A stretch of DNA of 64,000 bases from an uncultured Dehalococcoidia bacterium. Lineage in GTDB: Bacteria > Chloroflexota > Dehalococcoidia > Dehalococcoidales > UBA1222. Made by a program: the position numbers and the translations under genes. The stretch lies in assembly GCA_903844845.1 (NCBI GenBank), contig CAIMVG010000010.1, forward strand, positions 1-64,000, read 5' to 3'. Position 1 is the first letter of the stretch; every line of letters begins with the position of its first letter. Below the pieces are notes generated by a model. The model was not told the origin of the DNA and searched no databases. It was given only the letters and a program-made list of their open reading frames with translations. This document shows positions 32,453 to 47,429 of this stretch, piece by piece.

Positions 32453-32947
32453 ATGATTGAAGAAACTCAAATCGACCCGGCACCCGATTTCACCACGACC
32501 GACAGCGAAGGCGGCGTAATTAAACTTTCACAGTATGCCGGGAATAAAAACGTGGTCCTGGTGTTTAACCGGGGATTTTTCTGACCGTATTGTCGAAAAC
32601 ACATGGCGCAGTTGCGTCAAGATTACCAGAAATTCGTGGAACGAAATACAGAAATCATCGTGGTGGGACCCGAAGACGGGAAAACATTCAGCGATTGGTG
32701 GCATGATCACCAAATGCCGTTTGTAGGGATACCCGACCCGCAACACGATATCGCTAAGAAATACGGCCAACAGTTCAACCTGCTTAGAGGAGGCCGCCTG
32801 CCTGCACTTTCGGTGATAGATAAAAAAGGCAATATCCGCTCGATGCACTTTAGCGATTTGCCGAGCGACATCCCTTCAGACGAGGATGTGCTCTCTTTAC
32901 TGGACAATCTGAACAAAGAACAAGAACCGGCAACGAACAGAAATTGA
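32453..32947 (+). CDS. Peroxiredoxin-like selenoprotein with in-frame UGA (UxxC)
   Basis: 164 residues if TGA at 32582-32584 is read as selenocysteine, residue 44. Upstream of it the frame gives the redoxin start (PAPDFTTTDSEGG, then VVLVFNRGFF), and downstream it continues PYCRKHMAQLRQDY to the end. Homologues read F.RG.WCPYCR at this place, so Sec replaces the first Cys of CxxC. A hairpin with an AGUU loop, 25 bases after UGA, fits a bacterial SECIS. Read as a stop, the gene would be broken at its active site, yet the rest is well conserved. It probably reduces peroxides or other oxidants; the TrxB-like neighbour may recharge it. Confidence 0.85.
32604..32619 (+). promoter_or_regulatory. 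Candidate bacterial SECIS hairpin (peroxiredoxin-like gene)
   Basis: UGGCGC (32604-32609) pairs with GCGUCA (32614-32619), one G.U, around the loop AGUU. The loop begins 26 bases after the UGA at 32582-32584. A short upper stem with G among the first two loop bases at this distance is the usual bacterial SECIS form. Confidence 0.65.
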
Positions 32948-45023: not shown

Positions 45024-45377
45024 TCAGAAAGAAATGACTTTGTCGGCTGCCTTGATCAAGGCAGCCAGTTCACTCATTTTAGATTCGCATGCCCCGCTGA
45101 CAAGAGGCATATTCCGGGCAATGCCGCAGCGGGTCAAACAGGACTTGCACACCTTGACCACAACGCCTTTAGCCATCAATTCAGACAGCATCTTCCCAAG
45201 ATCGGTGTCGTAACCCCCGGGCGAAACGCCCTGCCTGGCAAGGTCAATGGAATCATTCAACAAAAAAATAGACGCACTGTCACCGGCCTCAACGACGGCT
45301 TCCGCCAAACGGAGCGCATTTCTGGCAACGTCTGTCCCGTCATAGGGATTCTTATTTAGGATCAAGAGAAGTTTCAC
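45024..45377 (-). CDS. DsrE-family protein (sulfur relay type)
   Basis: 117 residues: KLLLILNKNPYDGTDVARNALRLA, then SIFLLNDSIDLA, KVCKSCLTRCGI. This is a DsrE/DsrF-like fold; the conserved Cys lies in CKSCLTRC. Such proteins accept or pass persulfide sulfur. It is adjacent to, and divergent from, a YeeE/YedE transporter and a rhodanese, consistent with sulfur or selenium handling. Confidence 0.85.
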   Translation of the reverse strand: MKLLLILNKNPYDGTDVARNALRLAEAVVEAGDSASIFLLNDSIDLARQGVSPGGYDTDLGKMLSELMAKGVVVKVCKSCLTRCGIARNMPLVSGACESKMSELAALIKAADKVISF

Positions 45378-45514: not shown

Positions 45515-45616
45515 TATACGTATATAGAGTTATATTCAACCAGAGAGTTTCGCTAAAACGGAATCATACCATTGCTATCCGAAATGACACCAGAATATAA
45601 TTTTGCCTGATACAGA

Positions 45617-46810
45617 ATGACTAACATTCGGCACAACTACAAACTCTGGACGGGGCTGGCGGTCCTGGCCGTATCGGCATGGATCTATTACGCCCTCAAC
45701 GCCGAAACCCCGCGCCTGGCGCTTTTTTGGGTATTCGGCCTGGCCTTCGGCTTCGTATTACAACGCAGCAGGTTCTGTTTCGTTTCGGCGATCAGCAACT
45801 ACTTTCTTTTCAGAGACCGCAGGCTGCTTGTCGGCATACTTACGGGACTATTCATTTCGACCATCGGCTTCGCAGTCATAATGCACAACCAGGTACCGGA
45901 CCCTTCTACCGGCATCCCGGCCACAGCATTTGTCGCTCCATTCGGCTGGCACCTCGTAGTTGCCGGTCTAATTTTCGGTCTCGGGATGATGCTGGCCGGG
46001 GGATGCGTGCTCGGGACCCTGTACAGGATCGGCGAAGGTGCTGTGGCGTCTCTGACAGCCTTGCTGGGCATCATCACGGGCATGGGCATACTGCAACACA
46101 ACTGGCCGTGGTGGTGGAACAATTATATCTCCCGGCTTCCCAATGTGTGGCTGCCTGCCCATATCGGCTGGATAGCCGCGGTGGGCTTGACGCTCGTGTC
46201 CATCCTGCTGCTTTTACGACTGGTTACGTTCGGAGCGGCAATCCGCCCGGTCCCCCAACCGGGAAAAACAATCATCAATAAACCCACCGGAAGCAGGCTC
46301 AAATCATTATCCAGCAGCGTTTTCATCCAGGGATGGCCGCTCGCGGCCGGGGGGATAATCCTGGGATTGGGAAACATCCTGCTCTATCAGACAGCCCAAA
46401 GACCATGGGGCATCACCGGCGAGGTGATGCGGTGGACCCAGAACGTCTTGCAGGCCATCCGTCTTCCAGCCCCGCCGATTGGAAACGTACCGGGCACATG
46501 AGTTAGTTCATCTACGCCGGGTCAGTTGACCTGGGGGTTGATGTTAACCGGAGGAATCATCATCGGGTCCCTCATGGCTGCAATGATTTCAGGGGATTTC
46601 GACATCCGCCGGCCACGGCAAAAAGCCGTATATATCCGCGTCGTTATAGGGGGACTGCTCATGGGCTACGGAGCCGGGCTGGCCTCGGGCTGCACTATAG
46701 GGGGATTCTTTTCAGCCGTACCCTCGCTCGGGCTGAACGGGCTGGTTTTTGGGGCTTCAATCTTTGCAGGCGCCCTGGCGGGTTTACAGCTGCTTAAAAA
46801 AATTGCATGA
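45617..46810 (+). CDS. YeeE/YedE-family sulfur (or selenium) transporter with in-frame UGA
   Basis: 397 residues if TGA 46499-46501 is read through (residue 295). The frame runs unbroken on both sides: QRSRFCFVSAI, LAGGCVLGTLYRIGEG and GITGEVMRW before it, WGLMLTGGIIIGS and LASGCTIGGFF after it. The three Cys of thiosulfate transporter YeeE are kept as Cys, so the UGA is at a new position, in a loop (PGT-U-VSSS). A seven-bp hairpin with an AGUU loop lies 22 bases after the UGA. Readthrough restores the usual family length. Alternatives are a nonsense mutation or two separate polypeptides; the second part has no strong ribosome site. Confidence 0.75.
46517..46534 (+). promoter_or_regulatory. 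Candidate bacterial SECIS hairpin (YeeE/YedE gene)
   Basis: CCGGGUC (46517-46523) pairs with GACCUGG (46528-46534), one G.U, around the loop AGUU. The loop begins 23 bases after UGA 46499-46501. The loop and spacing match the hairpin in the peroxiredoxin-like gene. Confidence 0.6.
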
Positions 46811-46886: not shown

Positions 46887-47369
46887 ATGAAACGGTTAGC
46901 GATCATTTTTGCGGGTGCGTCCGCGCTATTGATTTTAACGGTAACGGCCGCCTGCGGAGGAACTTCAGCCACAACGACCCCGTCTGTTACGGCGTCATCG
47001 ACTGCGATGCCGGGTACACCAGTGAGCGTGACAGGCGGAGGCACATACTGGATGATAACACCAGCCGAGCTTTATTCATTCAAAACAAAGGACTTTTTCC
47101 TGGCCGACACGGACACCGCCTATGTCGGTGAAATCGGAGGCACGGACGTATTCCTGAACCCCGACACTATCAGCCAGAACCTGGATAAATTCCCAGCAGA
47201 CAAAAACACCAAAATCGTGGTTTACTGCGTGGCCGGGATGAAAAGCAAGGTTGTCGCGGCAACGCTGGTGCAGGCAGGATACACCCGGGTCATGGAACTG
47301 GATGGCGGCCTCATGGCCTGGGGGAACCAGGGCTACATGATTGTGCAAAAAACCCGAACGATGACTTAA
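46887..47369 (+). CDS. Rhodanese-domain lipoprotein
   Basis: 160 residues from ATG 46887 (GGAGGG upstream). A lipoprotein signal peptide ends with a lipobox at C23 (VTAAC), followed by a Ser/Thr-rich linker and a rhodanese domain (about 55-155) with the active-site loop Y-C114-VAGMKS and LDGGLMAWGNQGY. It would carry persulfide sulfur outside the membrane. It lies 76 bases after the YeeE/YedE transporter, so it may supply or process the transported sulfur compound. A strong terminator follows. Confidence 0.9.
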   Translation: MKRLAIIFAGASALLILTVTAACGGTSATTTPSVTASSTAMPGTPVSVTGGGTYWMITPAELYSFKTKDFFLADTDTAYVGEIGGTDVFLNPDTISQNLDKFPADKNTKIVVYCVAGMKSKVVAATLVQAGYTRVMELDGGLMAWGNQGYMIVQKTRTMT

Positions 47370-47394
47370 ACGGCATCAAATACCAAAGGCAATG

Positions 47395-47429
47395 AATCGG
47401 AGCCCCTCAAAGGGGCTCCGATTTTTTTA
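47395..47429 (+). terminator. Rho-independent terminator after the rhodanese gene
   Basis: A 13-bp perfect stem (47395-47407 with 47411-47423), a CAA loop and a T tract follow the stop by about 25 bases. Confidence 0.92.

Follow-up and report, generated by a model that had tools for sequence, protein, structure and literature searches.

Described relatives and the transporter of the window

Among the described members of the YeeE/TsuA family (PF04143), TsuA of S. thermophila (structures 6LEO and 8K1R) has three pore cysteines, and the inbound substrate meets C293, then C91 and then C22 (PMC11073785). Another YeeE-family protein, SoxT, resembles the transporter studied here in its presumed import of sulfur and in the rhodanese, TusA and DsrE proteins downstream in the sulfur flow, and differs in being linked to sox and shdr genes and, in the accessible part of its description, in carrying no mention of Sec (PMC11582611). 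Few transporters have been predicted to contain Sec, and what exactly Sec does in them is an open question (PMC13188914). One of them is the YeeE/YedE protein WP_012471001.1 (PF04143), which has the motif GUxSG and is listed in both PMC9312934 and PMC13188914. TsoY (NF047643) has recently been named a selenoprotein; its model finds no match in the genome studied here, nor in the transporter protein at E<=1, and an identity with TsoY was rejected.

The window, by which we mean the whole stretch of 64,000 nucleotides analysed, comes from an uncultured Dehalococcoidia bacterium and contains a gene of this family with a UGA at codon 295 (Table 1). Our analysis of the sequence argues, with near certainty, that this transporter is a genuine selenoprotein in which UGA 295 would be read as Sec. 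In standard annotation it would end at residue 294 or become two pieces.

Table 1. Features of the transporter locus, with positions in the window
Feature	Position	Strand	Remarks
Promoter-like TTGCTA-18-TATAAT, just 5' of the transporter gene	45572..45601	+	Weak; consensus match only
YeeE/TsuA-family transporter gene	45617..46810	+	397 aa with UGA 295 as Sec (predicted); stop 46808-46810
Cys54, equal to C22 of S. thermophila TsuA ("third", cytoplasmic side)	45776..45778	+	Invariant in 50 homologues; role PMC11073785
Cys130, equal to C91 of TsuA ("second", mid-membrane)	46004..46006	+	Invariant in 50 homologues; alignment to 6LEO
In-frame UGA, predicted selenocysteine 295	46499..46501	+	TGA shared by 13 genomes at this column; other homologues mostly Cys
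SECIS hairpin (predicted)	46517..46534	+	7-bp stem 46517-46523/46528-46534; apical loop AGUU 46524-46527
Cys359, equal to C293 of TsuA ("first", outer side)	46691..46693	+	Invariant in 50 homologues; alignment to 6LEO
Rhodanese-domain lipoprotein (lipobox Cys23, active-site Cys114)	46887..47369	+	PF00581; directly downstream of the transporter
Intrinsic terminator-like stem	47394..47424	+	14 pairs, T tail; ends the two-gene unit

The whole protein matches the Sulf_transp profile PF04143 with 202.8 bits over residues 50-387, above the gathering score of 27. An AlphaFold2 model built from 50 homologues has a mean pLDDT of 87.8 and is matched by the TsuA/YeeE crystal structures 8K1R, 8J4C, 6LEO and 6LEP with Z of 33-35.5, the next best being 5.6. 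The fold is thus shared with TsuA, as are the three pore cysteines in their order, which an earlier reading made from the sequence alone (the sequence-only reading) had rightly reported as intact, and likely also a TusA-type cytoplasmic acceptor. Unlike TsuA, the window transporter has an extra N-terminal helix and a longer outer loop carrying Sec295, with about 28% identity; thiosulfate as substrate is known only for relatives at this distance, and the analysis suggests that the protein of this bacterium probably imports sulfur compounds. The TsuA equivalog models of NCBIfam score below their cut-offs (NF052577, 132 against 400; NF041049, 93.8 against 645), and so does the YedE putative selenium transporter model TIGR04112 (46.4 against 200).

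The Sec residue lies in the context G(T/S/P)U, in a loop (residues 291-300) where model confidence is low, with pLDDT of about 59. E261 of TsuA, a residue of the cytoplasmic surface (PMC11073785), is matched in the alignment by D327, where helix 306-325 has its inner end. The Sec loop is at the opposite end of this helix, so the loop should be outside; the basic stretches after residue 326 and in 206-223 also fit the positive-inside rule. On these grounds Sec295 very likely sits on the outer face of the membrane. The claim of an additional, non-pore Sec, placed in a loop that precedes the last helices, is strongly supported. WP_012471001.1, likewise a PF04143 protein with predicted Sec, differs in this respect: its GUxSG corresponds to the motif GGCxSG at the second pore cysteine (here C130), and since GCxSG in the YeeE family surrounds that cysteine, its Sec probably replaces a pore residue, the position being judged from the motif alone. 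In the window transporter position 130 is Cys, and Sec295 in the outer loop forms a fourth chalcogen site. The sequence-only reading stands as to a Sec-containing YeeE protein with an extra non-pore Sec, and fails as to a family lacking described selenoproteins, in view of WP_012471001.1. No paper on Sec at site 295 was found in the open-access literature; the apparent novelties are the site of Sec, its clade across the order and the partner rhodanese.

Conservation of the UGA codon and its hairpin

The TGA at codon 295 is the single internal stop of the gene, and the terminal stop is TGA as well. As the sequence-only reading had noticed, frame and family homology are continuous across it: Sulf_transp profile positions 1-216 match the piece 5' of the UGA and positions 225-309 the 3' piece. 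Coding constraint runs on to 46807, dN/dS between the window and G001 being 0.17/1.58 after the UGA and 0.26/1.68 before it, hence at least as low after as before. Every homologue is closer to the window protein in the part after the UGA than in the part before it (for G001, 77% and 68% identity).

Searching 156 genomes of the same order, we found homologues in 17. Among them, 12 full-length genes and one fragment, from 13 genomes including the source genome, have TGA exactly at codon 295; they belong to families f1, f2, f4 and f9 and share 47-71% protein identity with the window protein. Three homologues within the order (L015, L016 and L026) have Cys in this column, and in the alignment of 50 sequences it holds Cys or Sec in 45, Lys in 3 and His in 2; outside the UGA genes, almost every Chloroflexota homologue has Cys there. 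The alignment of close homologues thus bears out a column of Cys or TGA, and the recurrence of TGA in independent assemblies speaks against an error that resequencing would remove. No additional TGA was found in the class- and phylum-wide samples, and a scan of named genomes places the relatives in Dehalococcoidia and other Chloroflexota. On the tree, three Sec/Cys changes are needed, all within one clade surrounded by Cys forms; therefore Sec was most likely derived from Cys, either once with two reversions or by two origins with one reversion. L015 and L016 (from G003 and G002, respectively, both keeping selA and selB) are Cys forms on a very long branch (1.23), which would reflect fast evolution after the loss of Sec. 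A further homologue fragment near a contig end (L027, G035:C53) has a TGA elsewhere, reading LGU where others have LGW, and may represent sequencing error or decay.

The hairpin that follows the UGA is CCGGGUC-AGUU-GACCUGG, with a folding energy of -10.6 kcal/mol; the second and third bases of its 4-nt loop are G and U. Its seven-bp stem and AGUU loop are as the sequence-only reading gave them, but the 22 nt placed there between UGA and hairpin reach to the apical loop, and the stem begins at 15 nt. The published bSECIS limits are a loop of 3-9 nt, a stem of 4-16 bp, G in the first two loop positions, a spacing of 16-37 nt and an MFE <= -7.5 (PMC13188914), and the window hairpin lies within every one of them (AGUU, 7 bp, spacing 22, -10.6 kcal/mol). 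Compared with random synonymous recoding, the hairpin alone is only moderately unusual (p 0.014), so the weight rests on the conservation test. Codons 301-305 have a synonymous identity of 0.84, compared with 0.37 on average for the gene (permutation p about 5e-6). This is the highest synonymous conservation anywhere in the transporter gene, and the 18 hairpin bases are nearly constant in 12 genes despite protein divergence of up to half. The PGQ codons of the hairpin are not kept by the Cys homologues of the order, and this suggests that they are constrained by RNA and not by protein. There are exceptions in detail: the loop of L024 is AAUU without the usual G and fails the G rule, and one stem pair is broken in L022. 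In the thirteenth UGA gene (L021, G010), an insertion brings an unrelated G-rich hairpin, GCCGCC-GUU-GGCGGC, to the same place, with its loop 18 nt downstream of its own UGA, possibly indicating an independent Cys-to-Sec change. A covariance model of the SECIS hairpin has its sole match in the whole genome in the hairpin itself, with no second copy, and an Rfam search gave chance-level matches only.

Selenocysteine machinery and neighbouring genes

The genome has a tRNA-Sec (70.8 bits) followed in one cluster by adjacent selD, selA and selB (362, 538 and 357 bits), so that the sel genes on which the sequence-only reading depended are all present. Both selA and selB are over their cut-offs in each of the 13 UGA genomes. 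G012, with a Cys homologue and 93% completeness, has no selA and a selB match only below the cut-off, and belongs to the same genus as the UGA-bearing G010. Other Cys genomes, namely G002, G003 and several of the class, keep selA and selB, so a genome can have the Cys form without having lost them.

Three further ORFs of the genome, in the AhpC-TSA family, carry a UGA in a U-x-x-C context, one of them in the window, and for this reason the genome probably makes several selenoproteins. The peroxiredoxin-like gene from 32453 onwards (+) has its UGA at 32582, in FFUPYC, and an AGUU-loop hairpin about 25 nt from the UGA; judged by these features it is likely a second selenoprotein of the window. 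The sequence-only reading had likened its hairpin to that of the transporter. The gene exists and the AGUU loop is common to both, but the covariance model of the transporter SECIS does not match it, and the likeness is therefore limited to that loop. In each of two TlpA-like lipoprotein ORFs, a hairpin whose loop contains GU comes after an in-frame UGA: L132 (G000:C8:25840-26199, minus strand; TTUGYC) and L133 (G000:C9:62071-62427, minus strand; TTUHYC).

Directly downstream, 76 bases from the end of the transporter gene, starts the rhodanese-domain lipoprotein, whose active-site cysteine is invariant. A rhodanese homologue occupies the same place in 11 of the 13 UGA loci, the window included, and at both f1 Cys loci (L015/L016); L012 and L021, both UGA genes, lack this neighbour. 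Five TusA-family genes over the cut-off are found elsewhere in the genome. On the other side, a small DsrE/TusD-like gene (45024-45377, minus strand) is divergent from the transporter; it has no homologue near the other loci and is therefore not counted as part of the system.

Readings of the UGA and the possible role of Sec295

Two readings would deny Sec altogether, and both are highly improbable. If the UGA were an ordinary stop, the gene would be a pseudogene, an assembly error or the source of a truncated 294-residue protein; the stop itself is all that speaks for this, together with a TTG-started ORF at 46526-46810. Against it, the identical TGA recurs in 13 assemblies in a column otherwise mostly Cys, selection is purifying 3' of the UGA, and C359, the equivalent of which is needed in TsuA, is located after it; pseudogene, sequencing error and stop with reinitiation were rejected on the 13-genome conservation and the selection past the UGA. 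Decoding as Trp or by general readthrough profits from a frame that is open under any reassignment of UGA, but homologues have Cys and never Trp at column 295, which rules out Trp, the full sel machinery accompanies a conserved hairpin, and the same gene uses UGA as its stop.

Given a selenoprotein, SelB and tRNA-Sec would decode UGA 295 as directed by the hairpin, yielding a full-length YeeE/TsuA-type transporter. The co-encoded rhodanese lipoprotein would probably offer sulfane sulfur or thiosulfate to Sec295, which would serve as a reactive outer acceptor preceding the cysteine relay of TsuA and hand the sulfur to C359, then C130, then C54 and finally a cytoplasmic carrier such as TusA. That Sec295 takes up sulfane sulfur or thiosulfate and relays it along this path is a tentative hypothesis, to which we give slightly less than an even chance. 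Its more specific form, in which the outward Sec295 is loaded with sulfane sulfur by the rhodanese and the atom crosses the membrane along the cysteines as persulfide or selenosulfide, seems rather unlikely. The main competitor accepts Sec295 as real and sees in it a redox switch or a metal(loid)- or selenium-binding site, for instance in selenium-compound uptake or gating, instead of a relay step. YedE-type relatives do have links to selenium metabolism (PMC9312934), the selenium-metabolism YedE/FdhT model is the top-scoring NCBIfam profile (154 bits, far under its 350-bit cut-off), and a lone exposed Sec, unpaired with any Cys of the loop, could act as a ligand-binding residue. However, the neighbouring rhodanese lipoprotein is a sulfur-transfer enzyme, the three TsuA pore cysteines are all intact, and Cys at position 295 is common in homologues across Chloroflexota, so that we regard a redox or ligand site as doubtful, with a share of the probability that is far from negligible. 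On the whole, a selenoprotein with Sec295 as the outer acceptor ahead of a TsuA-type relay is the best explanation, and one that we favour moderately.

The transporter places Sec at a new site of a structurally solved family in which Cys counterparts occur naturally; a partner gene recurs beside it, and its SECIS is sharply delimited. The contribution of selenium to sulfur transport thereby becomes directly testable. If the relay is true, selenium chemistry would be part of membrane transport. With Sec295 facing outwards, selenium would play a part at the entrance of a sulfur transporter, beside a sulfur-handling lipoprotein, in an anaerobic Chloroflexota bacterium.
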